Shown in pieces: positions 37,243 to 62,024 of a stretch of 64,000 bases of DNA (its first letter is position 1; each line of letters begins with the position of its first letter). The DNA is from Coptis chinensis (Eukaryota; Streptophyta; Magnoliopsida; Ranunculales; Ranunculaceae). The position numbers were made by a program, and so were the translations under genes. Where the stretch lies: NCBI GenBank assembly GCA_015680905.1, contig CM027377.1:3186501-3250500 (forward strand). Reading direction: 5' to 3'. The notes below the pieces were generated by a model. That model saw only the letters and a program-made list of their open reading frames with translations. It searched no databases and was not told the DNA's origin.

Positions 37243-37246
<4 letters not shown>

Positions 37247-39243
37247 TAGGCTAGAGTGCCACTCTTATTGTGCCACTCTTATCTCACACTTCTCCTGAAC
37301 CGTCTGATCTCTTCTCAAAATCTGATGATCTAATTCACTCAAAAACTCTTAAATTTCAAATTTTCGTAATATTTCAAAATCGAAAAAACGAAATAAGGGA
37401 AAAAACAAAATTGGAGGAGAACTCTCTCTCTCTCTCTCGGTTTTCTTCTCCTCCACTCCAGCAACCAAGCTTCTGGAACTCTCTCTCTCTCTCTCTTCAA
37501 TTATCGGTTATCAATTGTTTAATTAAGGTATCAAGCACTTTCATTATTTAATTTGTTTGATTTTCGATTATCAGTTTGGGTTTTGTTTAATTCGTTTGAT
37601 TTTTTATTATCAATTTGACTTAGCACTCAACCCAAACTCTCCTGAACTTGAGCCAGTTCTAGTTCCAACTCATGGTAGTTGGTTACTCCTCAAAGCCACT
37701 TCCGATCCAACTCAAGTTTTTAACTGTGGTTGGTTGAATTAATTATGATACTCAGGTTATATACTCAGGTTGAATTAATTGATTTAAGAATTAAGATGGA
37801 ATGAAATCCCCGAATCCCAGCTATCGTCATTGTGGGGGTGTCGAGGTTCTGCATTAGGTAGTATTTGTAAATGTGAAGCATAAGCTGCAAAGAGTTTAAA
37901 ATTTTTTCAAGGTGAACAAAGAATAGTTAACACCTCTTGTCACACTTTAGTGAACTCTGTCAGAGTTTTGAACTAACATATTCAGTGAACTCTATCATAG
38001 TTTTGAACTAGCATATTCGGTGAACTCTGTCAAAGTTTTGAACTCTATCGAATTATTAATACTGGTGAAACTAAGCTTCGTGAACTCTGTTTTGAACTAG
38101 CATATTCGGTGAACTCTGTCAGAGTTTTGAACTCTATCAGAGTTTTGAACTAGAATATTCGGTGAACTCTGTCAGAGTTTTGAACTATCATATTCAGTAA
38201 ACTCTGTCAGAGTTTTGAACTAGCATATTCGGTGAACTAGATAGTACTTCAACTCCACCAAGTTTTGTCAAGTCTTTTCAACTTGTTAGATCATTTGAAC
38301 CATGCATCCACAAAACCATTAATGTTCACAGAATAATTAAGTAGGTGGATAAATACGTAAATCCCCAAATAGAACATAAAAAAGGCTATATCTGACATTA
38401 CCTTTCCACTATTAGCAAGTTCGCCGAATATGCTAGTTCAAAACTCTGACAGAGTTCACCGAATATTATAGTTCAAAACTCTGACAGAGTTCACCGAATA
38501 TGCTAGTTCAAAACTCTGACAGAGTTCACCAAAGTGTGACAAGAGATGTTAACTATTCTTTGTTCACCTTGAAAAAATTTCAACTATTTGCAGCTTATGC
38601 TTCACATTTACAGAGACTACCTAATGCAGAACCTCGACACCACCACAATGACGATAGATAAAATTTCGGGATTTCTTCCCCATCTTATTTCTTAAATCAA
38701 TTAATTCAACCTGAGTATATAACCTGAGTATCCTAATTAATTCAACCAACAACAGTTAAAAACTCGAGTTGGAAGTGGCTTTGAGGAGTAACCAACTACC
38801 ATGGGTTGGAACTAGAACTAGCTCAAGTTCAGGAGAGTTTAGGTTTAGTGCTAAGTCAAATTGATAATCGAAAATCAAACGAATTAAACAAAACCCAAAC
38901 TGATAATCGAAAATCAAACGAATTAAACAAATTAAATAATGAAAGTGCTTGATACCTTAATTAAACAATTGATAATTGATAATTGAAGAGAGAGAGAGAG
39001 AGAGAGTTCCAGAAGCTTGGTTGCTGGAGTGGAGAAGAAGAAGACAGAGAGAGAGAGAGAGGGAGTTTTTCTCCAATTTCGTTTTTTCCCTTATTTCGTT
39101 TTTTCAATTTTGAAATATTACGAAAATTTGAAATTTCAAAGTTTTTGAGTGAATTAGATCATCAGATTTTGAGAAGAGATCGGATAGTTCAGAGAAGTGT
39201 GAAATAAGAGTGGCACAATAAGAGTGGCACTCTAGCCTAACCG
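37243..39243. mobile_element. 2.0-kb fold-back (long inverted repeat) DNA element
   Basis: The outermost 40 bases are perfect inverted repeats starting CGGTTAGGCTAGAGTGCC. Inverted similarity continues inwards through almost the whole element: 37243 to about 38240 pairs with about 38420 to 39243, leaving a ~180-bp loop. The arms contain CT/GA runs, a GTGCCACTCTTATT doublet at each end, and a tandem minisatellite near the loop. No coding capacity is visible. Insertion into TA sequence suggests a TA target, as in Tc1/mariner-like or related elements, but no transposase remains to assign a superfamily. Confidence 0.85.
37945..38235. repeat. Minisatellite of GTGAACTCTGTCAGAG units in the fold-back left arm
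   Basis: Units of about 30-55 bp carry the small palindrome CTCTGTCAGAG and the words TTTTGAACTAGCATATTCG. About six to eight units occur in the left arm. Only about three, in inverse orientation, occur in the right arm (38425-38530), so the arms differ in copy number. Confidence 0.75.
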
Positions 39244-39680: not shown

Positions 39681-41837
39681 TTAGTTATTCTTAGAATCCA
39701 AATTCCAGGGATCGAGCATCCTACCTATATTAATATCTGTTTCTCCCAATATGCTCATAGAGAGCCACGTCAGCATTATTTTTAAAAAAAAAAACCCGTA
39801 CTTAAAGAATAATTACTATATTATTACCAAATTAGCCTTATTATTGGTGTGTTTAGCAATTTATAAAAAACATTTTTGGTATTTTCATATGATTAGGAAA
39901 TAAAAAACCAAATACACGCCCTTATTTGAGTTAGACGTCAGGGGTAATTCAGTAGTTAACTACCGAAAATAGAAACAATCTTTCCAAACGCTCCAAACTA
40001 AAAAATGAACATAGCGGCCACATCTCTCAAATCTCTATCTCCAATCTTTATGAAGAAGGAGAAAAAGAAGAAGAAATTGCTTCAAGACCCATTGTTTTCT
40101 GTGAATACCTATCCTTATGTTTTTTATATTTGATTCCTTCCCTCTGATTACTTTGTTATTCTTCAATCATATGATTTCCTTGAGGGATTAGTAGTTTGTT
40201 GTGTTCGTGAACAAATATTCAATTATGTTGGGTTTGTAATTTTGTATTATCGTTTTCTTATTCCTTAATACTGTCTTCCATAGTGGTGGTGCACCAATTG
40301 CTTCAAGTACCGAACATGTATTGGAAAATTTGTCAGCTTCGTATTTAAAAGCTATTGAGAATTTAGTGGCATCAAATTCTTATGTCGTTGGGTCTGGAGC
40401 ACGCGGCACTCCTTCAGAGGCTTCAACTATGAATACATCATCTCTTGCAAGTATTGGTATATGTCTCTTGAGTCTTAAATGATGACCATTTTAACTTCTA
40501 ACAAGACTGTGACTAGATTTATATCCGTTATTACAATCATTAAGTGTGAATGTGTGATTGCCCTATGAATATGCTTTAGTTTACTTGAAAATGGGGAAAA
40601 AAACGTTCATTTGCGTTTTTTTTTTCTTTTTTTTTTTTTTGTGAAAGATTTTTTTTTTTATATATGAATACAGATTAAGAACCTAAACTCGATTACCTGA
40701 AATCATCGTCTCCCTCAATTCATCCATCTTCTCAAATTATCTACCTTTATCGGATTCGAAAATGGTCATTTTTGGCGGGTGTTTTTCAAGTGAGATTTAT
40801 CGCTCTTTTACAGATTTCAAGTAATTATTGTCGAATTCCTCGAGTATTATTGTTCTATTACTGAGTTCTTAGCTTTCTCTATTTTCCACCATTTGCATAG
40901 CATCTTTGCATAGCCCCCTGTTGCTAATTGCTCATTGCATTCGGCATATGTTTCGTTCTATAGATTTTAAACTTACCATGTATCGTTTGAGTGAATTAAG
41001 ATGGCAGGCTCACCACCATAAACAATGATAGAGACTTGGAAAGTATATCCAAACACTTTTTCTTATAACACCTACATGTACAGATTAATTGAGTTTCCCT
41101 TGGATTTCAATTTCTTTTTAGTTAACTTAGATGTACTTTGGCAATGGTTTCAATGGAAAATAGTGCACTAGCATCCACTCCAAAATTTCTTAACATTTTG
41201 TAGTTGTCACTCTATGCTTTTTCTGACTTTGATTGCTCTTTCATTTTTTTTTTAATATCTCATTAATTTGTATGAAGGATCTATGAAAATTCTCTAAATA
41301 TTGAATGTTGTATTTGGATTTGGTTTCGAAGACTGTGTGGATTAGAAGGGTACATTCTAATATGCCTTCACAGTTACATCATTTGTACTTACCCAAAAAA
41401 AAAATGTTGATATTTAAGTCAATCTCATGTTTTTGTATGTTTAATCTCTATTGATGAACTACTATTAAGTTGTTCTCGATCGCGTTGTTCTGATTTCAAT
41501 GTTTGTTCCTTGGTAGTGGTATGACCTCCTGAATCGAGATGCTATACGAAGATGGGGTCAGATACATTTAGTGATAGTCATATGTATGCCGCGGTTTTAG
41601 TATGCTAGCACCTATCTTGCTCTTAGCTTTCATTACAATCTGACTACATGTTTGTATTCATTTAAAGCTATTTTCCCCATTAAATTTTGAGTAAATAAGA
41701 AATCAAGTGATGGTGCTAGACTTGCACTCACAACTATTATTGGAGTTTTCTTTGTATTTATTGATGGTATTTCATTCTCATCTCTTTTAGTTATACCAAG
41801 GTAATCTAATGTGAATTTCTTTATATCCTCATCTTTT
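39681..41837. other. Intergenic DNA with possible exon-like fragments
   Basis: Most of this stretch shows nothing recognisable. A block at 40282-40455 reads open on the plus strand (PIASSTEHVLENLSASYLKA) and ends near SLASIG before sequence without a clear donor. I do not recognise it. Poly-T runs at 40618-40660 are unremarkable. Confidence 0.3.
41211..41321. repeat. 111-bp segment repeated exactly at 63890-64000
   Basis: Bases 41211-41321 and 63890-64000 are identical, including a run of ten T. The right copy starts at the base after the CACTA terminus (TAGTG) and runs to the window edge, so the repeat may be longer than seen. Confidence 0.9.
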
Positions 41838-41839
41838 AT

Positions 41840-41930
41840 ATCAAGGATATATGGAAGGTGATGTTATAGGATGTTTGTCTGATGGGGATTTGTATTCGCT
41901 AAAAGTGCCAGATATGGGGAGGTATAAGGG
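41840..41930 (+). pseudogene. Possible SPRY-domain fragment (ASH2/TRAUCO-like)
   Basis: The plus strand reads YMEGDVIGCLSDGDLYSLKV then PDMGRYKGQ. This resembles the GDVIGFYI...DG...PKPP...YKGQ core of the SPRY domain of plant ASH2-like (TRAUCO) proteins. The match is short and made from memory. The fragment stops where CACTA subterminal repeats begin, so the transposon may have broken or captured it. Confidence 0.3.
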
Positions 41931-42490
41931 GCAAAAATCACCCTATAAGTGATGTCAAAAATATACGACGTCAAAAATATAAGTGATGTCAAAAATATAC
42001 GTGATTGAAAGAAATATAAGTGATGTCAAAAATATACTACAACAGAAAAGACATTTAAAATCACCCTATAAGTGATGTCAAAAATATACGACGTCACTTT
42101 TGCAAGTGATGTAACTGGTGGCGACGTGAAAAGTCGGGGTTTTTCCACATCACTTTTAAACGATGTCCACAAGTGATGTTACTTTTACATCACTTTTAAT
42201 TGATGTCCATAAGTGATGTTATAACTTTGCATCACTTTTAATCGATGTCCACAAGTGATGTTATAACTTTGCATCACTTTTTAATCGGCGTCCACAAGTG
42301 ATGTTATAATTTTGCATCACTTTTAATCGATGTCCACAAGTGATTTTATAACGTTTAACATCACTTTTTAAAGTGAAATCAATAAGGCCGATTAACATCA
42401 CTTCGAAAGTGACATTTCATTCAGATTCCAAATTACTTGTAAAGTGATGTGAAATAACTCTATAAATCACTTTAAAAGTGATGTCCCATT
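41930..42490. repeat. CACTA left subterminal repeats (AAGTGATGT words)
   Basis: AAGTGATGT, its complement ACATCACTT and close variants recur about every 20-40 bases in both orientations. Such arrays bind the TNPA/TNP1-type protein in En/Spm elements. The phrase ATCACCCTATAAGTGATGTC occurs at about 41937 and again at about 42059, so the extreme left end has been locally duplicated or rearranged. Confidence 0.8.
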
Positions 42491-43627
42491 TATCAAAATA
42501 ATAAAAAAAATAATTAAAAAAACAAAATTGCCAATATCATCCCAATATAATACCATTTTGTAGTCATTTATCATCAAATAAAGATGAAATGTATCTTAAA
42601 ATCACATTTATCACACAAATATCATCTCCAATTACAAATATTACACTATATACAAAAAATTGTAACGAGCCAACATATACCAACAAAAATCTAATCTGCG
42701 ATCGAAAATGAGCCAAAGAGAACCACAATCACCCAACCAAGAACCTACCACGGCTGGCTTAATGCAATCAATTTAATCCAAGAACATATCACAGCCTAAC
42801 AAATCACTCTTTTTTCTTTTTGCATTATGAAACATTGTACTAGAAAATCAATGCAAATTTTATAAAGGAAAATAAAAGCGCATTGAACATCCGCCATAAT
42901 ATAGTACACGAATGACAAAGGAAGTTCTACAAAAGACAATTACTTGTTTTCAATATTACCTTGAAATTCATTATTATATTCAGATCCTCAATGGCCTTAG
43001 CGACCAAATCTTTAGTCCTAAAGGTAACAAACGATAACCCTTATTCTCTCATGAGTCTTTTGCTTTCATCATCCCGGCGTGCAATAGCAAAAATAAAAAT
43101 ACAATCTTTAGTTGGCCCTTGTGATCGCGTGAACTCAAGTTCTTTCCACACATGAGATTACTCGCAAACAAAAATACAAACTAACTAAAAATATTTATAA
43201 AGAAAAGAACGACCATAATCATAAACAACTTTGCCAAAAATACAAACAGGGCAACTAAAAATATTTTGGGAATAAGCGCCATAATCATAACACCTTGAAT
43301 ATTACACATTGAGAATATAGAATCGAGAAAACCTATAAAACCGGTGCGAATATCGGACATTATCGGTAAAAGTCCAAAGAAAACAGATTATCTTGGTCGG
43401 CACCACAAACTCTTGTGCATTTTAAGAAGTAAAGTTTAATTTCTTCATTTTTTTGTAGGAAAAAATGCATGCATAGCCCCACCTAGACAACTTAAGTACC
43501 CTTCCACAATCACTTAGCACTTTTCATAACACCGATGCTAAATAAGAAATAAGTTTTAAAAAAAATAATGCTTTTAGTCTTGGTGAAATAGTTTTGTTTA
43601 AAACTCATTCTTACCGAGCATGCATTG
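42491..43627. other. CACTA interior, noncoding
   Basis: No supported gene. The stretch lies between the left subterminal repeats and the first captured fragment. A short plus-strand open frame at 42961-43155 has no recognisable content. Confidence 0.5.
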
Positions 43628-43738
43628 CCCTGCTTTCTTATGGTGATCAAAGCCTGGTTTTTTCTCACGAGAAACATACACCAGACGAGGTAACTCATTT
43701 CCTTCAACATCACAGACGCTATCTTGACCAAGGAAAAC
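43628..43738 (-). pseudogene. Captured cellulose synthase exon (out of order)
   Basis: The minus strand reads [19 protein letters not shown] followed by [18 protein letters not shown], a signature of plant CESA catalytic domains. It starts after an acceptor (CTACAG). In an intact CESA this exon directly follows the exon now at 46771-46858 and precedes the one at 45251-45474, but here it lies last in the minus-strand order, so the captured pieces are shuffled. Confidence 0.85.
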
Positions 43739-43826
43739 CTGTAGTTCCAACAATCAAAAAATATAAGAGGGAGCTGAAAGATTTGATCAAGTAGAACTAC
43801 CATTCCATAAGAGATCGCATGATGAG

Positions 43827-44739
43827 AACTCCGAACTAGAATCAGATGAACTATCTGACTCAGAACTAGAATATCTTCGTCTTTTCCTCCTCCTTCCTCT
43901 TGAAGGCTTCTTAGATTTTCCTTCTCTACGCACAGCACCTAAAAACATTCAGTTGTAACTCATAAGAAAATCTATTATACCACAAATTATCTAGAAACTG
44001 AAAAGCTCTATATCTTTAGTGATAAACAATAAAGCTCTATCAGCCAAGCTGACTGACTCCCTCTCCAAAGCAGCTACTGCGCGTATCTTACCTTCAAGAA
44101 GTTCACCACAATTGACAATTTTCACAAAAAACGCAGGTTCCCCCTGCTTGGAACCTGCGCTTTCAATCTTTTTCAATGTCCGACGGCCTTGCACAAGCTT
44201 CCCAAAGACAACATGCAACCTGTTGAAATCAAAAGGGAAACAAAAAAAAAATGCACATATGAGCAACAAACAATACACACATATAGGATGGGATCTATAC
44301 AGAAAGGGTTTCGTACAACGGGCACCTACAAGATAAACTGCAGGCAGATATTTGGAACAAATCATTATCAGCTCATCTGGACAGTTCTAACCTTTTAAAA
44401 GTTGTCTATACCTTAAACAACTTTTGAAAGTATATGAGGAGCCAGTATTTCTCAAAATAGGATCCTCTTTTGACAAGGTTAGAAATGTCCGAATGAATTG
44501 AAAGCTTATGGGGACATCTCTACGATGAGGAGACCATATCCACCAACTCACACTTTGTACAAAACCATATGCATATACATCACGTCCCAGTATATATATA
44601 GAGTGGGGTACTAAAACTAACCCATCAAGATGGTGTACAGCTCTGAAGGTAATGAAGAACTGAGAGTTATTGCTGTTGGGACCAGTATTTGACATAGACG
44701 GATAGCCACGGCCATCATGTTTCAAAGTGAAGGACTCAT
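43827..44739 (-). pseudogene. Captured fragment of an SR-type cyclophilin (CYP63/CYP95-like)
   Basis: Three exons (44632-44739, 44092-44219, about 43827-43938) join in phase across GT-AG introns. The first reads [19 protein letters not shown] and [20 protein letters not shown], the core of the peptidyl-prolyl isomerase domain. The second reads LHVVFGKLVQGRRTLKKIES and continues to NCGELLEG. The third starts the Arg/Ser-rich tail (GRRRKRRRYSSSESDSSSD). The N-terminal third of the isomerase domain and most of the tail are absent, so no functional enzyme can be made. Retained introns show capture from genomic DNA. Confidence 0.85.
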
Positions 44740-44923
44740 CTGGAAGAATGTCAAAGCAACCACTTGTTAACAAGAAGATAAATATACTGAAAAACCCAGT
44801 AGCCTGTTAGAGACTTAAGAGTAACATATGAAAGACGCACACCAGGTGCAGTCACCTAGCCAATTAAGGAAGTGAGCATCCACATATCAATACACCGTCT
44901 GATACGGAAGTGACAGGTTTGAA

Positions 44924-45474
44924 TCATATAGACCCAACAAGGAGCATTTTCCTGCTCTCCTTCTTTGGTGACATTTTCCTGTTCTTCTTTCTAGAACTAC
45001 AACACAGGCAGCAGCACCATTTTGGCCAACAGTTGCAGGTCTTTGCAGGGGTTTCTTCTTGGTGGGGAATCAAATCCATACAAAGCTTGCCTTCTGAAAA
45101 CACAACCTGTTCCAACATAAATAGGTCCCTATATGCCATCAAGCCCTTTCATGTTGATCTGCGTACAGTAAAAAACAAGTTATCCATTCTACAAGATCAG
45201 GAGAAAAACAAAAACACCAAAATGTGGATGAAGAAAGCAGCATTACGCACATCAAAGAATACAATGTTACGATTTGAATATCTACCATTACGATCAATTC
45301 CATCAAACCTTTGAGGGAATTGCACGTAGTAGATCTTCTTCCCCTGAAATTGGGTCCATCATACAGCACATGGCCTCTCTGAGTGCCTTAGCTTACTGTT
45401 GTTTATATAATGATCACAGTCTACATTCAGAAATTATGGAGCATTGGAGATGATTGCTGAGACTCTCACCTTGA
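44924..45474 (-). pseudogene. Captured cellulose synthase exons (D-C-DHYINNSK to cysteine-rich loop)
   Basis: The upper exon (45251-45474) contains [25 protein letters not shown] and [20 protein letters not shown], including the CESA DxD aspartates. The next exon (44924-45158) reads INMKGLDGI, then a TAG where CESA has CAG, then [20 protein letters not shown], and after a frameshift [20 protein letters not shown]. Small indels also break the upper exon. The sequence is closest in feel to primary-wall CESA3-like proteins. It lies 3' of the exon at 46771-46858 on the same strand. Confidence 0.85.
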
Positions 45475-45476
45475 GC

Positions 45477-45523
45477 TGATAATATCCATTAAAGACCTAT
45501 TCTTCAATGCCAAAGTTCAAGAG
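45477..45523. repeat. 47-bp perfect inverted repeat, left copy
   Basis: This segment is the exact reverse complement of 46407-46453. The two copies enclose ~880 bp that contain a LINE fragment and the captured unrecognised gene piece. Confidence 0.9.
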
Positions 45524-45713
45524 ATTTCCAAGTAACTCGGAGCATTTCCAAAAGATTTCCAGCAGAAACTTTTTCCTTAATGTGCTGCTGAATTGTTTCA
45601 AAATGCTTGGTAAACAGGGCTACCGCAAGTTCAACGAGCTGTTTTTCTGATTCAGGAGATATTACTCGATAAGCACGTACAGCCTCCACGAAATTACTTA
45701 ACGGAAGCCTAAG
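45504..45713 (-). pseudogene. Captured fragment of an unrecognised host gene
   Basis: An open block of about 70 codons reads LPLSNFVEAVRAYRVISPES and continues VELAVALFTKHFETIQQHIK to MLRVTWKSLELW. It is alpha-helical in character and faintly recalls Vps51-type vesicle tethering subunits, but I cannot assign it. Its distal 20 bp fall inside the 47-bp inverted repeat at 45477-45523. Confidence 0.4.
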
Positions 45714-46221
45714 TGATTTTTAAAAACACTATGGTTCATCAGGCTGATCAATATAATATTTAACTATGTGAAATTATAAGGTGGCAGCAAGCATAATCAC
45801 AAAATAGCCATCGAGCGTAAAGGAGTTATCTGCGACCCATAATAAGATATATATCAAGAAACCTTTTGAATACCGAGCAAAAAATTGGCATCCTAGAGTC
45901 GTTATCATTCCCTATCAATGCTATAAACAGGAAAAGATTTAGCAAACTATTCTTCATGCAATTGAGGAAGAAACTATTTGCTCATGCAACTGAGAAAGAT
46001 TGAAGGTTCTCGAACAAAATGTAGCAATGTTACCTATTTAATAATTTAATTGTATGGAAACCAGAGAAGTACCAATACAAGTCAACAAAAGTAGAAGCAG
46101 AAAGCACCAATAGTCCATTAGCCATATCAAATACAGGGGAGATATTTATCGAAAAATAATAATAATAATAATAATAATACAGGGGAGAGGCGTGCATAGA
46201 TCGCAAAATCTCTAAGATGCA

Positions 46222-46300
46222 TAATTGCTGATGGTGCAAGTATTAATTTTTGGCACGATAAATGGTCTTATGGTAAAATCTTTATGGCTAGTGCCTGCAG
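46222..46300 (+). mobile_element. Short L1-type LINE fragment
   Basis: The plus strand reads ADGASINFWHDKWSYG, matching the GDGxSxxFWHDxW motif found between RT and zf-RVT in plant L1 elements. Only ~80 bp can be supported. Confidence 0.6.
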
Positions 46301-46406
46301 CTAGAGCTATCCTGCAATTCCCTGAGCTATCCGAAAGATAAAAGCCTCAAGTCAAAGTGTCTTTCCATCTACATACAAAGGGCTAAAATGGAATGCTACT
46401 AGTTTC

Positions 46407-46453
46407 CTCTTGAACTTTGGCATTGAAGAATAGGTCTTTAATGGATATTATCA
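46407..46453. repeat. 47-bp perfect inverted repeat, right copy
   Basis: This is the exact reverse complement of 45477-45523. Perfect identity suggests a recent inverted duplication made during assembly of the captured region. Confidence 0.9.
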
Positions 46454-46770
46454 CTTGGAAACAAACAAAACTTGGGAAAAAATACAATAAATAGACAAAA
46501 CACCAGCTGAACTAGTGTACTACTTAACAGACCACACTACACATTGCCCATCAAATGCAAGCTTTTTTAGTTTGACATAATTAGTCTTCATAGTTTGTTA
46601 TTTGCTTTACCTCGCATCATCTTTTATATCGATCAGTCTATAGTCTCCTACCAAAAGATAAAAGATAGAGAGGGAAACGGGCATATTGCATAACATTGAT
46701 AAAGCGGATGATGCAAGGACTAAGGTTTTAAGAATAGTAGGAAACACTGATAATATACATGACGAATTAC

Positions 46771-46858
46771 CTGTATCATTCCAGGATGATCTCGGACATT
46801 GTTCCCAGGCCATGGTGTTCCATCTTGCATTGTCCAACCCTCTTTGGGAACCTTCTTT
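46771..46858 (-). pseudogene. Captured cellulose synthase exon ([13 protein letters not shown])
   Basis: The minus strand reads [19 protein letters not shown] then RDHPGMIQ, ending at a donor GTAATT. This is a diagnostic CESA stretch. The abutting sequence at its 5' side is an aminopeptidase exon, so the junction at about 46860 joins two unrelated genes on the same strand. Confidence 0.9.
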
Positions 46859-46867
46859 ACCCCTGCG

Positions 46868-47063
46868 TCATCGCTGCTTTGAGTGAATACATGGCATGAC
46901 CTGTTTTTGGCAGATCTTGTGCAGGTGTCCAGATCCTCAGGGAAACCTTCCGACCTGAGTGAGTGACAAATGTTTCATCTGTGCTTTCCAGCTTTCCAGC
47001 AACTAACGCAAACAAGTAGCAAGGTTTCTTGAATGGGTCCTCCCAGAGAACATAATGTCTACC
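46868..47063 (-). pseudogene. Captured M1-family aminopeptidase exon
   Basis: The minus strand reads [40 protein letters not shown] and [20 protein letters not shown], then LKAAM. This matches the N-terminal beta-domain region of plant puromycin-sensitive-type (M1) aminopeptidases, upstream of the HExxH site, which is absent. The fragment is open throughout. Confidence 0.85.
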
Positions 47064-48299
47064 ACCCTTCAACAGAATGAGACAACAAAATACTTGATCA
47101 AAGATGAAGAACACAAGCACTTTTCTGGAAAGGCATCTGAACTTGCAACGCAAGTAGAGCTATTCCAACAAAAAACATCACTCCTTGAAGCTGAATTGCT
47201 AGCAACAAATGAGAAGGAAAAGGAACTTACAGAGTCCTTGAATGTAACCATTGAAGAAAAGAAAAAGTTTGAAGATGTGTCAAACAGTTCAAGCGAAAAG
47301 CTTGCAGAGGTTGAGAATTTGCTGGTGGTCTTGCAGAATGAACTGAAACAAAGCCAAGACATATTAGAGAGCGTCGAAGAAGAACTCAAGGTGTCTGGTG
47401 TCAGAGAAAGTGAGATATTGAAGAAATTTGAGATTGCCAATACTCAGGTAGGGGGACAAGGTAAAATAATTGAGGAGGCCACTGCAAGAATCTCTGAGCT
47501 GGAATCCTTACATGAATCTGTGTTAAAGGATTCAGAGCTAAAGCTGCAAGAAGCAACAGTTAATTTCTCCAACAGGGACACTGAGGCTAACTCCTTGTCT
47601 GAGAAACTGAAGATTCATTAAGATCAAAAGAAAGTTTATGAAGTGCAAGTGGCAGAAGCAGATGAAAGAGCAGCTTCTCTGAAGCTTGAATATGATGAAG
47701 CTTCCATGAAACTATTAGCTCAGGAAAGCATCATTAAAGAAATCAAAGGCAAAGTTTTGGAAGCGGAAAAGACAGCTGGACAGTCTCTTTCCGATAACGA
47801 AATGTTGGCTGAGACAAACATTCAGCTCAAAAGCAAGATTGATGAGCTTCAGGAACTTCTGAGTTCTGTCCATGTTGAAAAAGAAGCTACTTCTCAACAA
47901 TTCACTCACCACATGAATGCTTTGGCCGACTTAACAGACCAGCATACAAGAGCATTCGAAGTTCAGTCTTCAACGGAATCTCGTATCAAGGAAGCTGAAT
48001 TGCAATTACAAGAAGCCATTGAGAGATTCAGTCATAAGGATTTGGAAGCTAAGGACTTGACTGAAAAGCTGAATGCACTTGAATCTCAGATAAGAATTTA
48101 TGAGGAAACAACTAAAGAAGCATCTGCTGTTGCTCAAAGCCAAAAGTCTGAGCTAGAAGAGGCTCTCTCGAAAATAAAACACCTTGAAAGTGTTGTCCAT
48201 GATCTTCAGGTTATGGTTTCTCAGTTTGAAAAGGAAAGTGAAGGACTAGCTGTGACAAACTTGAAGCTTAATGAGGAACTGGTAGTGCATCAATCCAAG
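47064..48299 (+). pseudogene. Captured coiled-coil protein fragment (PICC/At2g32240-like)
   Basis: This is a ~1.2-kb open stretch on the strand opposite to the other captured pieces, with one TAA near 47619 (SEKLKIH then stop, DQKKVYEVQVAEADERAAS). Heptad-rich sequence includes EEKKKFEDVSNSSSEKLAEV, ARISELESLHESVLKDSELK and SHKDLEAKDLTEKLNALESQ. Plant PICC-type long coiled-coil proteins share such HKDxEAxxLxEKL and ARISELE repeats. The fragment has no N-terminus and no C-terminal anchor. Confidence 0.75.
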
Positions 48300-48396
48300 G
48301 TGATCCATTTACTTTTCAGGCTTACTTCAAACAGATGGATGCTAGGTCTCAGAAATTAGAATTGCCTACAGGATTCACAACACAAGGAAGACTCAC

Positions 48397-48720
48397 CCGA
48401 GAATGTACATGTCTGCAGGTTCTTCCAAAGAAAGCCAGCCATCAATCTCAAGATTCTGACCCGGAGGTCGTCCAGCAACATTCCACGTACCTATCATTAC
48501 CCTATGGACCACCAAAATCACCGATTTCATAAAAGACTTAGTAAGGCCATCTTATTATATCAAATCAATGGTTCAAATATTTCACCAATAGAAAGAATGG
48601 AAGCCTAGTAACACATATTGGCATTAAGACCTCACATCCTTTGTGTCTATGTACTGAACGCGCAGAGTTTCAGAATTTCTTCTTTTTTTTCTTAACAGAT
48701 GTCCCTTTAGTGATATCCCT
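48397..48720 (-). pseudogene. Captured inositol polyphosphate 5-phosphatase exons
   Basis: The lower exon (48397-48501) reads VMIGTWNVAGRPPGQNLEID then GWLSLEEPADMYIL, the GTWNV start of the plant type I 5-phosphatase catalytic domain. The upstream exon (48631 to about 48720) reads RNSETLRVQYIDTKDV and joins it in phase across a GT-AG intron to give DVRVMIGTW. The catalytic GDxNYR and later motifs are absent. Confidence 0.85.
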
Positions 48721-49860
48721 GAATAGATCAAGTACAAAAGTTATTAACATGACTTTGAGTACATAAACAGTCCAATTTAGTGTATAAAAAAAGTAACCCG
48801 TCTCAGTTGGATACTTTAAAGATTAACGGCAGTAATAAGACTATTTGGATATTATCAATGAAATATATGGGAAAAAGGAAATTATGGTAACCAAAAGGTT
48901 ATTTGGTCTCTTTCTAATACTAGCATGCAAGTCTTTTTGAGACGACAACTGTAGAGTAGAAAGGCAAAACACTAAAGTTTTATAGATGTGAGGCTGCTTT
49001 AAGCACCAACTCCGCTTATAAGATGGACATGATTCTAAAATGAAAAAATAAAGGGGCGGAGGGTGGGTAGAACTGTCTCTCCTGTGGAGCAAACATGGCT
49101 GACTACAAGTATGCCATATAAAGAGGTCTACTTTCACATATCCGTCATCGCTTTCTATTTATCAGCTTCAATTCGACAACTATATGTTGCCATGATATCA
49201 GGGAGATCCTAACAAGACAAATTGCATACCTTGATATATTTAGAATAGATCAACAATACTAGCAATCGGAACCATAGAATTAGTTTGAATGATAGAAGAA
49301 ACCTGATAAAATGTGATTTTCTGGAAACTCTCTGCTTCACATTCCGAATAAAAGTAGTTAGAACTAATGAGTAACAGTATTTGGTTCTGACATAAAAGGA
49401 AATACAAAAAAAGGTGAAATAAATACCGTGTTACAGCAGTAGATCATCTGCTTCACTCCCAAACTTTGATATATTTTAAAAAGAATTTTAATTGCAATAC
49501 CCTATACTCTTCCCTTTACCCTCCTCCTTTATCCGGGCTTGGGACCGGCATTGTAAAGCTAGCGACAACTTTACAAAGGCGGAGTTAAAAAGTGTTGGCC
49601 TGCAAGAAGCAATAGAGAACAATCAGTATGGATATATGAATAAATGATCAGTTCTAAAGCCTGCAAATGTATCAATAACAAAGCTAAGAATAACAAAGAA
49701 AACAGATACATGTAGCACCAAGTGGAAGAATTTAAACCATTCACCATTCATTGAGTCCAATTCCAACTAACACAACTGCCCAAACACGCATAATTAAAAG
49801 GTCTTCAAAATTTAAGTGTTTTCAAACAACAAAAGACTAGCTCTTAAAATTGAGTGCACA
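48721..49860. other. CACTA interior, noncoding
   Basis: No supported coding sequence. A stretch near 49530-49590 reads TTATCCGGGCTTGGGACCGG, then TTGTAAAG and CTTTACAA in inverted arrangement, like a short dispersed repeat, but it is too small to classify. The rest may be intron or flank sequence of captured genes. Confidence 0.45.
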
Positions 49861-50207
49861 TCACAACTTAATTAAGGAATTGGTTGGCCAAGCCACAAAA
49901 CTAGAGACAGCATCTTCTATCGTCTTCAAAGCGTTATTCCCCCTAACAAGTAGTGCATCCTTTTGAATTGCAACTTCAACAGAAACCTTTGAATAACCGG
50001 GGCCTAAAGGCTTAGTATGCACTGTAGCTGCTGGATCATCAGTATACCACAATCCTTCTGCCACGACATCTTCAGGAACAAGTCTAAACAACTTGCACTT
50101 CACAACTTTGGATTTAGTACCCTGTATGAAAACAAAAAGATATACATACATGACTCTAGAAATTCACATGTTAAATGAAATAGCATTTAGCAAGGATAAC
50201 ATCACGA

Positions 50208-50307
50208 AATCGATTTTGATTGCTTTGGGCGGATGGACTTTGATGGTCACGTTGAGCCCGATGAGTAGGTCTTTGCGTGGGATACAACTTTGGATTTAGC
50301 CCCACCC
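50208..50307 (-). repeat. Repeated TNP1 exon, copy 3 of 3
   Basis: Three similar ~100-bp exon-like blocks lie in the TNP1 gene: here, at about 50398-50436 continued at 55997-56050 on the far side of the copia element, and at about 56155-56230. Shared words on the plus strand are GATTGCTTTGGG, GGACTTTG and TTTAG. Exon duplication probably expanded a linker between the central and C-terminal domains. Confidence 0.6.
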
Positions 50308-50436
50308 CTGCATGCGAAAACATGAAAGGGAAAATATAAAAAGCAATGAAAATTTCAAATTTAATGAAATAGGTTTTAACATGGAAAACTTCTTGAATTT
50401 TGATTGCTTGGGGCGATAGACTTTGGTGGTCACGTC

Positions 50437-53400
50437 GTTGGAGTTATCCCTCACAGGAGAGAAAAACCGAGACTTAAACGGCGATCGGCATCGCGACGGC
50501 GAGAGAAGCCGAGCTCTCGATAGAGCGCCGACTTCGCTCGAGTTCCATAACATAGGCGACCATTCTTCAAAGTGGCAGCCAGCTTCGGCTTCAGTCTTGG
50601 GCCTGACTTCAGCGCAGTGGCCAGCCAGCCAGTCTAATTTCGTGGGCCACTTACTACGATTCCCGCGAATTTGGTTTTTGGAGATAAAACCAAAAATCAA
50701 GGTTTTGGAAAACCTAACCTAACAGAACCAAAACAAGTCAGAAGGATTGGAATCCAGACTAAAAGAGAGAGAACCTTTACAGAGATACAACCCTGTAAAG
50801 AGATAAGAGTGATCTAGTAAGGTGAGAGACTGTAAGGAGAGATTGTAATCTTCCTTCCCATTTTATTAAGAACTGGCTCTTGTGGAAGTAGGCATCATTG
50901 GCCGAACCACGGTAAATCTTTGTCTTGTGGTTTGTTGTTTAACTGCTTTACATTATTATTTGTTGTTGATAGTTGTTTAGCGAGTTGGGCATGTTAGTAT
51001 AGGTAGTTTGTGATATTTAGATTTTGTCCGGAGTTGAATTGTGTTCATACAAGTTATCTGTGTAGTGGGGGAACCGATTGGTATTGGTGTAATCCCCAAC
51101 AAGTGGTATCAGAGCCTTGGTTAGAATAGCTTTAGGGTGTTATCCGAATCTTGGTCGGAAGGTGTTTGGCCAAAATTCACGAGAGAAGATTTGAGGTTAA
51201 ATAACTTGTAGAGATGGACCATTCCGTGAACACTTTCGTATGATGAGTCCGAATAGGAAGAACTACACCATCATGGAAAGCCAAGATGGAAGACTTGCTA
51301 TAATCGAGGACTTGGCACTTCCCATTGAGAATGAGGGAGTAAAACCGAAAAAGGCGATGAGGTTGAATGGAAAAAGCTTGTGAGAAAAGCTATTGGGTAC
51401 ATTCGACAATGGATGAGCGGCGGTGTCTTTCACCATGTGGCCCAAGAGACTACGACCTTCCGGTCATGGAAGAAACTTCGAAGACCTTTATGAAAGGAAG
51501 TCGGTGGAAACAAAGTACTAGTTGTTAAGAAGTTTGCGGAACCACGAAGTACCGGGAAGGTTCTTCAATGTCCGAAACATCTTAATGAAGTCTGAGAATA
51601 TCATCAATCGATGCATTTGATGAAGATCAATTTGGGAGACGAAGTTGAGGCTTTGTTTCTATTAGGCTCTCTACCCGAAAGTTGGGAGACATTAGCGGTT
51701 TCTACATGGAGCAGCCAAGGATGGAATTGTTACCATGGAGATGGCTACCACGTCTTTGTTGAATGAGGGAGACTAGAAGGAGTGCAAGAAGCGGCTTCTA
51801 ACTTCGCAGGTCCTTTTCACGAGAAAACGGGGAGAGGTCAAGCAGAAAAACCATCTCGCTCTAGAGGTGATGACAGTAAATCTAGGGGTGAAGCTAGAAC
51901 TCCTAAGGCGTAGAGGCAATGTTACTATTGGCCACCAAAGGCCACTTCGGATATGAGTCTGCGAGAACAAGAGGGATGAGAAGAATAACGTGTACATGAA
52001 GACATGGTGCGAGGGAACGGAAACACAGCGAGAGATACTACCGCGACTAGTCGATGACCTGAGTGGAATTGTGTCGTCGATTGTGGTGTGTCTTTGTCCC
52101 GAGTACCTTCATGTCGGATACTGAGTGGGTGATAGATACTGAGGGAGCATCCTATCACGTCACACCCGCGAGGGATTCTTCACTACCTACCCGTGGTGAA
52201 TATGGTGAAGTGAGGATGGAACAGTACTGATGGAGTCTCAAGATTATAGGCATTGGAGATGTTCATATAGAAACCAATGTCGGCTACACCTTGACACTCA
52301 AGGATGTAAGACATGTCCCGACATACGGTTAAGCCTAATTTCGGTGGGAAATTAGATGGCGATGGCTTTGTAAACTCGTTTGGTAACGGGGTATGGAAAC
52401 CCGACCCGGAGGGTTCCATTGTAGCGACCGGAGGAAAGAAAACTTGCTCTCTTTACAAAACACAGGCTAGTTTGTGTAAAAAAGCGAATCGTGGCCAAGA
52501 AGCTTCATCCTAACCGCGGCACAAAAGAGGCGTGTCACATGGGCATAAAAGGGATGGAAGTTCTTGCTAAGCAAAAGGCCATGCCCGGACATTAAAGGTA
52601 CACATTTAAGTACATGTACTCACTGTTTGGTAGGAAAGCAACCGCGGGTGTCTTTCCAAAGATTCCCGCCTCTCCTGAGAAGGACATTGTCCTTGAACTA
52701 GTGCAATACGCACTTATGTGGTCCTATGAGAGTGAAGTCCCACCAGGGAGCTTAGTACTTCTTGACATTCATTGATGATCGCCAAAAGAAAGATATGGGC
52801 CTATATAGTAGAAGACCAAGGATGAAGTACTTGGCGTGTTTGAGAAATTCCACGACATGGTGGAAAGAGAGACCGGGAAGTTGTTGAAGTGTATTCGCCG
52901 ATAATGGGGGTGAGTACATTGGGCCATTTGAAGAGTATTGCCGAGTCATGGGATTAGTCATGAGCGGACCGTTCCCAAGACACCGCAATGAATGGAATAG
53001 CGAGAGAATGAACCGTACCATTGTAGAGAGGATAAGATGCATGCTATCTCACTCTAAGCTACCTAGAAGCTCTTGGGTAGAAGCAATGCGTGACCCCGTG
53101 CATGTGATCAACTTGTCACCGAAAAAGCCTCCGAATAGTGATTATCCGGAGAGAGTATGGTCAGCGAGAGATGTTGATTATGGATACTTGAGGGTATTTG
53201 GGTGCGGGGCATTTGTGCATATTCCGGGATGAGATTCAAGCTTGATGACAAAGCCAAGCGGTGCATTTTTCGGGTTATGGAGATGAAAAGTTTGGTTACA
53301 AACTCTATGATCCGATTAACAAGAAGGTAATCCGTCGTCGAGATGTTGTGTTCTTAGAAGACCAAACCATAGCAGACTTTGAGGAGGGTGAAAAATACTG

Positions 53401-55991
53401 GGCTTTCACCAATGATCTTGTTGATTCAACCGAAGTTCCTCTTGTGGAGCGTCGTGCGTAAAGGCATTGAGAATCTGAGAACCATGAGTTTGAAGCTCAT
53501 GATGAGAATCTATTGCTCATGATGGGATAGAACCTATTGGCATAGAAGATGCGGATGAGATGCATGAACCACCACCGAGCAAGCGAAGTGCAACCTCCCC
53601 GAGGCACCGGCCAGATGGGGCAAGGAGGTCCGACAGAGGAGAATAGCTTCAACCAGTATCCACCACATACGTCACGTCTTTACTATCGGATGGTGGAGAG
53701 AACCTATGTACTATCAAGAGGCACTTGAAGGTACGAGACAAAGAAAAGTGGTTGAAGGCCATGCATGGCGAGATGGATTCTTTGCATAAGAATCACACTT
53801 ATGAGTTAGTTGAAACCCACAAAGGGAGAAAAGTTCTCAAGAATAAGTGGATATACAAAGTCAAGCATGAGGAGAACAATCTCACCCAAGGCACAAAGCT
53901 CGCCTTGTTGTGAAGGGATTCGGTCAAAGGAAAGGGATTGACTTTGATGAGATTTTCTCTCTCTCAGAGTGAAGATGACTTCTATCCGGGTGGTATTGGG
54001 TATGGCCGCAAGTATGAACCTAGAGGTTGAAAGCAGCCTAGATGTTAAAGACGACTTTTCTTCATGGAGACCTTGAAGAAGATGTCTACATGGACCAACC
54101 GAGGGTTTTGAGGTCAAAGGCAAGGAGCACCTAGTATGCAAGGTGATAAAAGAGCTTGTATGGGTTGAAGCAAGCACCGAGACGGTGACAAATACATAAA
54201 GTTTGACTCCTTTATGGTGAAGCAAAGGATACAAGAAGTCCGCTAGATCATTGTCGCGTTTGTTCGAGGATTTCCGGATAGGGATTTCATAGTTTATTTT
54301 GCTGTATGTGGATGATATGTTGATAGTTGGCCCAAACATCAACAAGATATCCAAGCTGAAGAAAGACTTGAGTAAGTCCTTTGAGATGAAGGATTTGGGT
54401 CAAGCAAAGCGGATACTGGGATCGCGGATCACTCGTGTGAAAAAGAGTGGAAAGTTGTGGCTTTCTCAAGAAAGCTACATTGAGAAGGTGTTGAAGAGAT
54501 TCAACATGGATCAAAGCGAAGCCGGTCGGTTAAAGCGGTGGCCAGTTCAATGACCAAAGAGATGTGTCCTAAGGGTGAGCATGAGCGCGATCGATGGAAA
54601 AAGATTCCTTATGCATCCGCAGATGGCGCGTTTGATGTATGCCATGGTGTGTACTAGACCAGGACATTGCTTTTCGCCGTTGGGGGTGGTAAGCGATTTC
54701 ACATCAAATCGGGTAAAGAGCATTGGGAAGGTGTTAAGTGGATATTGAGATATCTCAAAGGCACTTCCAAATCATGTTTGTGCTTTGGTGGAAGTAAGCC
54801 CTTACTTGAAGGCTACACCGATGCGCATATGGCGGTGATGTTGACTTCGATGAAGTCCACCTCCGGTTATCCGGTTACTTTTGCGGGGAGCGGTTTCTTG
54901 GCAATCTAAGTTGCAAAAGTGTGTTGCCCTCTCCACTTCTGAAGCGAGTATATTGCAGCCACCGAAAGTGTTGCAAAGAGTTGCTATGGATGAAGAGGTT
55001 CTTCGGCCGAACCGGGCTAAAAAGCGAAAACGGTTTGTAGTTCTATGTGACGGTCGAGGCGCCATCCACTTGAGCAAGAATCCGAAGTTTTCATTCTAGA
55101 TCCAAGCACATACATGCGTTATCGATCATTGATTAGAGAAGTACTTTCGAAGACAAGCATTTGTGTATCGAGAAGATCCATACCGACAAGAACGGGTCGG
55201 ATATGATGACCAAAGTCTTACCGAAGGTAAGTTTGATGTTTGTTGGCTATTGGGAATGGCGACACCTCCCCGTTGATTTGGCAATTGCATGGTATCCCCC
55301 CCCTCGCCTTAGGAGGGGAGATTGTTGAGTTATCCCTCACATGAGGAGAGAAACCGAGCCGACGGAAACGGGCTTAATTCGCATCGAGATAAGTCGAGCC
55401 CGCTCTGATAGAAGCGACTTCGCGTCGAGTTCCGAAGAACATAGAGGCGACCAGCTCAAAGTGGCCCAGCGCCAAACTTCGAGTCTTGGTGCGACTTCGG
55501 CTCAGAGTGAAGCAGCGCCAGCAGTCTAATTTCGTGGGCCCTTGCTTCAAGATTCCCCGAATTTGGTTTTGGAGATAAAACCAAAAATCAAGGTTTTGGA
55601 AAACCTAACCTAACGTAACCAAAACAAGTCGGAAGGATTGGAATCCGGACTAAAAGAGAGAGAACCTTTACACGAGATACAACCCTCAGAAAGAGATAAA
55701 GAGTGATCTAGTAAGGTGAGAGACGTAAGGAGAGATTGTAATCTTCCTTCCCATTTTATTAAGAACCTCTTGTGGAAGTAGGCATCATTGGCGAACCACG
55801 GTAAATCTTTGTCTTGTGGGTTGTTGTTTAACCGCTTTTACATTATTATTTGTTGTTGATAGTTGTTTAGCGAGTTGGGCATGTTAGTATAGGTAGTTTG
55901 TGATATTTAGATTTTGTCCGGAGTTGAATTGTGTTCATACAAGTTATCTGTGTAGTGGGGGAACCGATTGGTATTGGTGTAATCCCCAACA
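50437..55991 (+). mobile_element. Ty1/copia LTR retrotransposon, degraded, nested in the CACTA
   Basis: The LTRs are 50437-51101 and 55323-55991. A 5-bp target duplication ACGTC flanks them at 50432-50436 and 55992-55996. A primer-binding site TGGTATCAGAGCC follows the left LTR and a purine tract AGGAGGGGAGA precedes the right LTR. The interior shows, in order, gag-like, integrase, reverse transcriptase (with a YVDDMLIVG core) and RNase H regions, the copia order. The wording resembles the Tork/Tnt1 group. It looks broken, with many breaks, on the order of ten or more. The LTRs differ mostly in their first ~250 bp and are nearly identical after that, suggesting moderate age. It is younger than the CACTA that hosts it. 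Confidence 0.88.
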
Positions 55992-58900
55992 ACGTCGACC
56001 CTCAAGAGATCTTTCAGTAGACACATCTTTCGATTTAGTCCGTCCCTGTACGAAAACATATAAGGAAACAATAATATAAATGTAAATCTAGGAATTTGAA
56101 ATTAAAAAAAAAAAAAAAAAAAGAATCCAACATTGTATACATACGAGAATTCAGATTGTGATTGCTTTGGGAAGATGGACTTTGAGGGTTCATTGCCACC
56201 TCTCACGGAGAAGGTTGAACAGATCTAATGGTTTGGCTGAAAATAATTTTGATGTTAGTAAATCAAAACAAAAGTATATATGGAATCCCCAAACAAATTG
56301 GAATACCTCTTCACTATTCAATAGTTTGGCAACAAGTTTCTTGATAGAAGACATTTCTTCCAATACATCATCATATTTCTCCCACGCAATTCACTCATCC
56401 TCCCATTGCATTGTTGGATACCATACAAAGTAGACGGAGTAACTCCATATCCCACTCCACGCCAAGCCCCATTAGGATCGGGACCTAAAACTTGTGAGAG
56501 GGCATCTCCTCTTCCACATTCTATATCACAGTCTATTTCATTCAACTTATCCTATAACAGCAACAACAACAACAAGAATAAATAATATAACTAGAGTCGC
56601 ATGGAAATCGAATAAGCATGCCTTTTATCTTAGAAAATATTTTATGAACAAGTGAATCGACATACTATTTTCTCTTTAGCAAACTCATTTACTGGTTCTC
56701 CATTTTTCCTCTTGTGGCCTGCAACCCATACAGTACCTCTTGTAACAGGTTTACCAATCTTACCCTTTTTACGCCTCTACAAAACAAGTAAATAAAACAT
56801 TTCACATATATATATTAAGTACTCTTAAGGGGAAAAATCTTCACAAGTCAAAATAGATCATTCAATTACCAACTCATCTTCCAATCTTGCATAACCTTCT
56901 GACTACAAGTATGGGGCATCTTGTGGTATTGAACCCTTCTTCCCATTTTCCCTTAGTTTCTACAAAAAAAAATATATATGAGTCTTGATATGCAAAATGG
57001 ATTTTATAACCCATATAATGTATGATGAATACCTTGTATCCTTCACGTGAACAATTTGCAACAAATGCTTTCCAATCGGTAGTTTTACATCGGTTGGGCA
57101 ATGTGCAATTCTAGCTTGGTCAAAGATCATATGCATCATAAATTCTTGATCTCAATTTTGTTTTGAACCCACGCCAGCTTCCCAATAGACTTAAAAGTCT
57201 GTTTTCTAGCACGTTACGGTGCTACAAAATGTTCTTTGTAAAAAGATGCATAAACAAATATTACTATATTTCTTTAATAATATATAACTTGCCATGTAAA
57301 TAAAGAAATTTACCTTTAAAACAGTCCACATTTTGTCCTTAATCTCGGGTGTTACTTTATGCCAAGTAGGATAGCCAATTGGAGCTGATCCCTTGCTACT
57401 TTGCCCAAGTAAGCTAACTTGTATAAGTTCAATTAGGACCTATAGGTAGACCTTTTTCATTAAAGTCAAGCACAAGTTTTTTGAGCTTTTGGATCCAATT
57501 GATTCAGTTTGTCGGCCCCCTCGGTATTGGTTGGTGAAGATCATTCGAACCTTCGATGCATTACCTTCTCCTTCAGTAATCATTTTCATAGTGGTTTTCC
57601 AACCATTCATCATCTTCCATTTCCAGTCATGATTTCCATTTTGTTGCTCACTTGGTAGCTTTTCCATATCCCTTGGCAACATTTCCACTTCTTGAACTTT
57701 CTTACCATAAACTTTATTTGGACTTTTGGAACCTTGTACATGACAAAATAAATTGGTTTAATATACTTACAACCACACCTTAATGACACAATCACAACCA
57801 AGCATAATTATTTTTCTTAGTGGAAATTAACAATATACACAAACCTGAATGTGCACGTCCACTTTTCTTAGATGCTTCTACAAGTGCTCTTTTAAACTTT
57901 TGAACCTTAGCTCTTGCCGCTTTTTGGTACTAGAAAATCAAAACAAACAGAAGAAAACAAAATTAAAATACTACAAATACAAAGACGAATAAAAAAATTG
58001 AGAGAGAATCAAAATATCTTACCGGGGTTAGTTCTCTAGCCTTTTCCTTTGCCATTCTTCACATGCATTGAAAAGATTAGAAAATACGTACAGCAAAAAA
58101 CAAAACAATCATATACATGGCACTTAGGTAAAATAAAGTACATAATTTGATCATGACCATAACACAACATGCCTTGCACCATTATAAGAAGCACTCACAA
58201 AACATAATAAAGTTAATAACTAAATAAACAAAAACAAAAACCACATAATAATCAGTCTAAATGGACAAAATGAAAACAAAACGGACCCAATTACACTCTA
58301 TTTCTTTTTTTTTGTAGCACCCAAGTTCCCTCACAATCTTGACGGCTTATAGACTTAGCCTTCTACATCACCTTCGATGTCATTAACTAGCTCCACACTT
58401 GCAAAAGGTGGTGGTGCGAGGCACATTGCTAAGGTCCTCCTCCGTGTACATTTCAAAATCACGGAATCCATGAGAAGGTGCTTTCAAAACCACAAACCAA
58501 CTGCTGTCATGTGATTCTCGTGAGTAGAAAAACTGTTCACTTGGGATGCAAGGATAAAAGGGTCTTGCTTGTGTGTTAAACTTTGATGCAGATTAACTAA
58601 TGTGAATCCCTCTTCTACTTTGATCCCACTTCCCTACGTTTGCCCAATCACAATTAAATAATGGGTACTGAAAAACACCATAATCTAGCAAAATTATCCT
58701 GTTTTATCACACCATAATATGTCACATCTTCCTCGATTTGTGCGGTGTCTTTAGCACTTGCCCTACACAAGCTACTAGTCGACAATGACACTCCAGAGTT
58801 TTGAGTTCCTTTTTCTCCATCCTTTATGTGGAAGCGGTAGCCATTTATCAAATAACCTTTATAGCTCCAAGCATCGCAACAAGGTCCATCCGAGAGCCAA

Positions 58901-61427: not shown

Positions 61428-62024
61428 ACGCCTCTAAAAACTCAGAAAAAACCTCTATTAGACAAACCATGTTTAGCTTTTATACTATATAAGCGTAACA
61501 AATGCTTCTAACCATTATACTTGCTACAACCTTCATACAATGGCCTTTCGGACTCCTCAACCGCCTTTTGAATTTGGCTTCTTTTTTGGATCACCGAAAA
61601 CTCTTCTTTCTTATTACTCTCATTTGTCGCTTTAAGCATCTCATAAGTCTCGGTGAGGTTAAAGTCCTGTAGTTTCAACTCTTTCATCTACTACATGCAC
61701 TTGCCCTTCTTCTCCATGCAAAACAAAAGGATCATAAGTCATATCAATACCCTCAATGATCAAATGGTCTTTTTACAATGTTGGGACTCAAATGGTTAAA
61801 GTTTTTGCAACTAATGCACGGACATCTAATGCTTGTTTTATCCATCAAAGGAGCCATAGCGAATTCAATGAATTCATCAACAAAGATCTTAGGTACTCAT
61901 CACTAGCTCGGAAAATTTCAAGATAGTTAATGATATATGTACATAGTAATAAGCACTTGTTTCAAATAAAGTAATTTAAGTATAAACTATTTAACCTGTT
62001 TAAAGTTCTCCAAGTCTTGTCCAT

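Follow-up and report, generated by a model that had tools for sequence, protein, structure and literature searches.

The element and its captured host DNA

The 64,000-nucleotide stretch of the Coptis chinensis genome analyzed here (the window, C1:3186501-3250500) contains a CACTA (En/Spm) element in which a nested mosaic of host-gene pieces lies between the TNP1 gene and the left end (Table 1). The initial annotation had described a CACTA carrying pieces of at least five host genes, and our searches bore this out, recovering transposase domains along with captured DNA from six host loci, namely those encoding CESA, an SR-type cyclophilin, a VPS51-like protein, an M1 aminopeptidase, a coiled-coil protein and an inositol-polyphosphate 5-phosphatase (IP5P), and additionally a scrap of a PP2C gene. 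The count is six because the piece at 45477-46457, whose presence had been noticed and which had been left as unrecognized, matches a locus on C3; we take it to be VPS51-like, a name that no searched library gave. The captured DNA spans 43595-49355 instead of the 43628-48720 initially assigned to it, because the IP5P piece runs to 49143 and is followed by a second M1 piece.

Four of the fragments that had been given protein names were recovered as follows: CESA (2.5e-13) and the cyclophilin (1.3e-9 and 2.3e-4) by Pfam, M1 by a match to solved aminopeptidase N (1e-17), and IP5P through its source locus, which shows an Exo_endo_phos2 match (1.2e-9). The coiled-coil fragment was recovered through its source on C9; it is presumably PICC-like, a name that no searched library returned. 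The VPS51-like exons gave no Pfam domain match, nor did those of a further gene piece (C5:69.107 Mb), which copies C-F of the element carry within about 950 bp at the site of 43094-43110 and which the window element and copy B lack; we assume this piece to be AMSH-like, again a label given by no searched library. The VPS51-like exon also found no match among solved structures.

Donor loci were to be sought in the same genome, and a source gene was indeed found there for five of the pieces at 96-98.6% identity, together with a near-identical locus for M1. In the order in which the six loci are named above, they lie on C6, C3, C3, C6, C9 and C1. A CESA gene at C6:1.708-1.710 Mb (L042, L-numbers being our locus handles) contains the three CESA pieces, at 96-97% identity, in collinear order over 1.29 kb. 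A second CESA gene at C6:0.78 Mb (L043) is 98.7% identical to the one at C6:1.71 Mb, inverted and 0.9 Mb apart from it. The two M1 pieces are likewise collinear in the source-like locus at C6:85.61 Mb, where further M1-like exons occur. A candidate IP5P source at C1:60.496 Mb (87%) was rejected as a paralog without a match to 48311-49143, and C1:60.747-60.750 Mb fits up to the junctions. Also rejected was a reading of 49144-49157 as random filler: 49142-49156 is a scrap of the PP2C gene at C3:89.11 Mb (PP2C domain, 1.6e-34), which joins M1 at the same place as in the copy at C6:62.93 Mb and marks where an earlier insertion into M1 ended. Four pieces (cyclophilin, CESA, IP5P and VPS51-like) retain non-exonic DNA collinear with their genomic sources, and the source of the coiled-coil piece is one uninterrupted coding stretch. 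Of eight pieces known from the family, seven have the orientation of the transposase genes, a sample too small to carry weight. Source tracing covers 43595-49355.

Table 1. Features of the CACTA element, its captured host DNA and its left flank (window positions)
Feature	Position	Strand	Match or remark
CACTA (En/Spm) element	42035-63889		
Left terminus and subterminal AAGTGATGT repeats	42035-42484	+	left end at 42035, TACTACAACAGAAAAG
CESA piece	43595-43840	-	L042 3802-4080, 96-97%; twice in copies H and J (L020, L026)
SR-type cyclophilin piece with introns	43838-44946	-	C3:65290263-65291398, 97.6% and 98.5%
CESA piece	44949-45476	-	96.4% to source
Fold-back of 47 nt, repeating in inverted orientation the far end of the VPS51-like piece	45477-45523	+	
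VPS51-like piece (presumed)	45538-46456	-	C3:65272133-65274493, 96.8-98.6%
CESA piece	46458-46858	-	96.5% to source
M1 aminopeptidase piece, part 1	46868-47088	-	99.5% to C6:85.61 Mb
Coiled-coil piece	47077-48313	+ (antisense to the element's genes)	C9:84.522 Mb, 98.3%
IP5P piece	48311-49143	-	C1:60747344-60748177, 98.2%
PP2C scrap, 15 nt	49142-49156	-	identical to L053 936-950
M1 aminopeptidase piece, part 2	49158-49355	-	99.0% to C6:85.61 Mb
TNP1, Transposase_23 domain	49861-50163	-	E 6e-7
Nested Copia-type retrotransposon in TNP1 region	50437-55992		direct repeats 50437-51102 and 55324-55992; RVT_2 2.5e-16
Upstream part of TNP1 region	55993-57757	-	extent from similarity to other copies
DUF4218 pieces, downstream of tnp2	59247-60019	-	two frames; 1 of 2 matches under Pfam cut-off
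tnp2, Transposase_21 domain	60348-61433	-	E 8.4e-87; profile 1-212 of 213
Right subterminal repeats and terminus	63548-63889	-	right end at 63889, CACTACAACAAATATG on minus strand
Exact copy of right flank (63890 onward)	41211-41936	+	726 bp, 100% to C1:3250390-3251115 (L009 390-1115)
Filler similar to left subterminal sequence of the element itself	41937-42034		98 bp; 41934-41989 vs 42057-42112, 89%

Copy B (C9:38154658-38170997), examined at both ends and in the cargo, outside the 4.1 kb of C9:38157001-38161097, has terminal inverted repeats beginning CACTA (CACTACAACAG and CACTACAACAAATATG) and a 3-bp target duplication, ACA, both termini being present over a span of 16.3 kb. The target duplication of the window element is unreadable because its left flank is rearranged. 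The left end reads TACTA in the window element and in copy E; a base loss at the window's left end was considered and dropped, as copy E, with a different flank, starts with TACTA too. With at most one mismatch AAGTGATGT occurs 61 times against 24 expected, a count that 0 of 100 shuffles reached; its exact matches are confined to 41947-42484 and 63548-63837, and a motif search of the window found none between 42485 and 63547. The inverted repeats, target duplication, subterminal arrays and tnp2 plus TNP1 are those of a CACTA (En/Spm) element. Helitrons are devoid of inverted repeats and target duplications and have 5'-TC/CTRR-3' ends, and the inverted repeats and the ACA duplication rule out such an element here. 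As in Pack-CACTA (Pack-TYPE) elements, host coding-gene fragments lie between CACTA ends; the lack of any internal transposase match that also defines those elements does not apply here, Transposase_21 being present. The tnp2 domain is nearly complete, DUF4218 lies in two frames, and the TNP1 region is split by the Copia-type insertion, which is missing at the corresponding place in copy B. Elsewhere, 100-28300 and the 9 kb preceding the window (L010) are rich in repeats, with blocks as long as 5 kb occurring many times at 75-94% identity, and a large imperfect inverted repeat with arms of about 1 kb and 35-bp tandem units within it occupies 37243-39243.

Family copies and surviving earlier stages

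Genome searches recovered the composite mosaic at eight loci, each with TNP1 DNA, showing that it is not unique to the window: the window itself, C9:38.17, C2:19.77, C2:59.30, C2:61.73, C6:10.69, C8:59.82 and C9:43.59 Mb. The left flanks differ among the five copies read (B-F). Allowing at most two mismatches, the genome contains 90 matches to the 31-base left end (reversed control, 0), and the 8 of these 90 that read CACC are exactly the eight composite loci. Cyclophilin pieces are present at no fewer than 14 loci besides the source, and the coiled coil in four of the eight composite copies (window, B, C and D), the other four being without it; among the matches listed, the VPS51-like and coiled-coil pieces are confined to the composites and the loci from which they came. 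The searches scored the best 40 of 1023, the best 40 of 42 and the best 40 of 67 candidates, and counts are lower bounds. Rows kept in the derived presence matrix numbered 17 out of 40 for cyclophilin, 18 out of 28 for CESA, 27 out of 27 for M1, 9 out of 18 for VPS51-like, 14 out of 20 for IP5P and 19 out of 43 for AMSH, and TNP1 together with the first IP5P block contributed 55 positions; weak paralogs, sub-pieces, repeats common to other transposons and short partial matches were dropped. TNP1 and IP5P block limits in composite copies were estimated from longer matches, and the coiled-coil column is incomplete, copies B, C and D being assigned that piece by their unbroken matches. The CESA column represents 44880-45476 only, matches to 46458-46861 having been dropped; this other CESA stretch occurs in the copies at C7:15.40, C6:17.09, C1:62.94 and C5:57.67 Mb.

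The captured pieces are nested in each other, and several less complex arrangements persist in the genome. The cyclophilin piece is flanked on one side by a duplicated stretch of CESA and on the other by the main CESA piece. Copies H and J have the CESA piece collinear with its source; in the window it has the VPS51-like piece inside it. On the M1 side the nesting is three deep, with IP5P inside PP2C and PP2C inside M1. M1 is unbroken over 1.34 kb at C5:31.2 Mb (L030), contains 1.09 kb of PP2C without IP5P at C6:62.9 Mb (L025), and IP5P lies inside PP2C at C7:15.40 Mb and in L040. In the presence matrix CESA (44880-45476) occurs without cyclophilin at two loci besides the two genes (C9:22.99 and C9:41.94 Mb), and cyclophilin without VPS51-like at six or more. 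In copies E and F, M1 is followed by 167 bp of the PP2C locus at 100% and then by 1.33 kb of IP5P; in the window it is followed by the coiled coil and then by 0.83 kb of IP5P, so that the coiled coil has taken the place of older cargo. Of the VPS51-like source, 2.1 kb is kept in E and F, and the window lacks 1.28 kb between 7-bp repeats. These arrangements favor a series whose stages are represented in other members of the family: M1; PP2C inside M1; IP5P inside PP2C; CESA and then cyclophilin; the composite with VPS51-like; and the coiled coil. A different cargo stretch is seen at C5:6.51 Mb (L037 2588-4088), where the element resumes at the same base as it does after CESA in L020 and L036; we take this stretch to resemble M1 aminopeptidase coding sequence.

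Junctions and the scar at the left end

The junctions join host DNA to host DNA without remnants of CACTA ends. Shared bases were found at CESA/cyclophilin (3), M1/coiled coil (5, the BLAST matches overlapping by 12), coiled coil/IP5P (3) and IP5P/PP2C scrap (2). Filler of 1-2 nt separates VPS51-like from CESA and cyclophilin from CESA, with about 9 nt at CESA/M1 and about 14 nt between the fold-back and the VPS51-like piece; CESA joins the 47-nt fold-back bluntly.

To the left of the element lie an exact copy of its right flank and then filler, the latter built from the element's subterminal motif and beginning at a shared AAAA. A relative at C4:94.276 Mb (87%) is collinear across the insertion site, and for this reason 41211-41936 looks like empty-site sequence. 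Our reading is that the left end was cut and that repair copied an empty homologous site, switched to the element's own end and joined.

The CAG/CTG anomaly and divergence from the sources

Relative to the source genes, the proportion of altered CAG/CTG sites is 58-64% in copies C, D, G, H and J, 46-56% in L030, L031, L033 and L040, 22% in F, and 6-11% in the window, E and B. Across these 13 copies the control motifs gave 5-15% (CAA/TTG), 0-22% (GAC/GTC) and 0-31% (AGC/GCT), and, on small numbers, 12-67% (CCG/CGG) and 0-82% (ACG/CGT); alteration peaks at CAG/CTG and is not confined to it. The commonest changes are CAG to CGG, CTG to CCG and small indels, which are not the products of simple deamination. 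We suspect that the anomaly may represent base-calling errors at CHG-methylated sites. In counts taken against the majority sequence (window 48311-50437 and 55993-57480), the IP5P cargo has 1 of 19 sites altered in each of the window, B and E and 5-14 of 19 in 16 other copies. Two TNP1 stretches have 3-8 of 20-23 altered in the window, B and E, with 11/23 in one stretch of B, and in some of the copies whose cargo is altered one of these stretches has few altered sites (for example 2/23 in L024). The gene-derived cargo of the window, B and E is nearly devoid of the anomaly, which their TNP1 parts display to differing extents. The nested Copia-type element has two long repeats with 88% identity to each other; of 19 CAG/CTG sites in the left repeat, 15 are altered in the right one, and the reverse comparison gives 5 of 9.

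Outside CHG windows all 13 copies differ from the sources by 1.3-2.9%, and the individual window pieces by 0.0-2.7%. The initial annotation had proposed to date each capture by synonymous divergence; this was rejected as misleading, since in the majority of the copies examined the differences cluster at CAG/CTG. More generally, motif-specific differences of this kind can spoil the divergence dating of transposon cargo.

How the cargo was assembled

How cut-and-paste transposons acquire host genes is debated between fusion by tandem insertion and template-switching repair. We think it probable that the internal segment of this CACTA grew by successive copying of genomic DNA through template-switching break repair, after which the element spread to eight loci. 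A break or excision gap in one copy would start repair; synthesis would jump to ectopic host templates and back, with joining by short microhomology or filler, and new pieces would be patched into older cargo. CESA/cyclophilin and M1/PP2C/IP5P cargo would also be brought together in one element, and the composite would spread. Excision-break repair has been suggested as a cause of filler in other cut-and-paste elements, in the account of PMC3260210. The nesting, the intermediates, the junctions and the left-end scar together favor such repair over the tandem-insertion model proposed from Arabidopsis Pack-CACTA elements (PMC13317346, PMC8903248), in which two close elements lose their inner ends and move as one with the trapped host DNA. 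That model could account for the first piece of each cargo kind; as the explanation of the whole mosaic it is improbable, because the pieces come from C1, C3, C6 and C9 and are nested, the junctions are host to host, and no exact subterminal repeat is present within 42485-63547. Each nested piece would need a new tandem pair with full loss of the inner ends, and the older elements are uninterrupted both where PP2C entered M1 (L030 vs L025) and where the VPS51-like piece entered CESA.

We also regard as rather unlikely a history in which the mosaic arose mainly by recombination between cargo-bearing elements and the window lineage captured little that was new. CESA-type and M1/IP5P-type elements do exist apart and are joined in the eight copies reading CACC, and at C7:15.40 Mb the two kinds are joined in another order; the restriction of the VPS51-like and coiled-coil pieces, among the matches listed, to composites and source loci nonetheless means that two captures or more took place together with the joining or after it. 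Copying from RNA finds an echo in the single open coding stretch behind the coiled-coil piece and is contradicted for cyclophilin, CESA, IP5P and VPS51-like by their collinearity with sources including non-exonic stretches, leaving retro-copied exons a negligible prospect. Scarcely credible, too, is the idea that the transposon inserted into a mosaic already present in the genome, or that the mosaic reflects faulty assembly. The initial annotation had pointed to the same fragment order outside any CACTA as the sign of such a mosaic; genome searches (best 40 of 1023 candidates in one) found no locus with the six-piece order outside the family. All eight composites share their locus with TNP1 DNA, the sources are dispersed, and copy B has its termini and target duplication.

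Several points weigh against growth by template-switching repair. The pathway is read from end products only, and it, the strand broken and the timing are what we infer from them; the first capture of each cargo kind may have involved complete loss of internal CACTA ends. Divergence outside CHG windows ignores the inferred order, the newest piece (coiled coil) standing at 1.67% and the older cyclophilin at 1.01%. At C7:15.40 Mb (L059) the order is M1, PP2C and IP5P, a left-arm piece (43348-43465), 3.6 kb, and CESA beside TNP1, and the short CESA match seen there recurs at three further loci. As this order differs from that of the window, CESA-type and M1-type cargo either came together on two or more occasions or underwent later rearrangement; their joining is thus no simple event, and we do not claim a simple tree of captures. 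The M1 locus at C6:85.61 Mb may be a sibling and not the source, because a frame break is read there, and the window element may be non-autonomous, as DUF4218 is split between two frames.

On C3 only 15.8 kb separates the cyclophilin source from the VPS51-like one, although the two pieces were acquired at different stages. By our own arithmetic, the chance of any source pair being so close is about 0.001 (28 pairs from eight sources in a 936-Mb genome), and no remnant of the window CACTA element was found between them in 24 kb. In a copy that already bore it, the cyclophilin piece may have served for invasion of the C3 source locus, followed by copying of a neighbor. If the CAG/CTG anomaly is a base-calling trace of CHG methylation, the cargo of the window, B and E would escape silencing. 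The wider idea that captured pieces serve as homology handles, directing subsequent captures, and also protect the cargo against silencing is tentative, and we rather doubt it. With sources, intermediates and a fresh-looking scar in one genome, the order and size of captures, their junctions and the choice of templates become readable.

Comparison with known gene-carrying transposons

Gene-carrying CACTAs are already known, and what this one adds is the surviving series of stages with their sources and nested junctions. The initial annotation had considered the number of fragments unusual in combination with TNP2 and TNP1; transposase domains are indeed present, and five fragments are no record, as the soybean Tgm-Express1 likewise has CACTA ends around five unrelated host-gene fragments with introns and exons, as described in PMC1947982. 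Tgm-Express1 is 5.7 kb long and is listed beside non-autonomous members in PMC2613891, whereas the present family has tnp2 and TNP1 domains, spans 16.3 kb in copy B and retains earlier stages in the same genome. The Tpn1 family of morning glory is similarly a large CACTA family with internal sequences replaced by host genic DNA; its cargo carriers, as presented in PMC5105172, are non-autonomous, and here the cargo stands beside transposase domains. Pack-CACTA elements of Arabidopsis, rice and maize also combine host DNA from multiple loci and have relatives with and without particular pieces (PMC8903248, PMC13317346), but Pack-TYPE elements as defined in PMC8903248 have no transposase match, and the route of tandem insertion with inner-end loss that these two accounts describe does not fit the nesting seen here. 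Filler together with intron-bearing gene fragments is likewise known from maize Ds elements, which belong to the hAT superfamily and are mostly small in the description of PMC3260210. In bearing both a transposase and host-gene fragments the present element resembles the Jozin CACTA of Chenopodium, which, in the account of PMC8978399, carries one gene per element in its 5' region, against several here.

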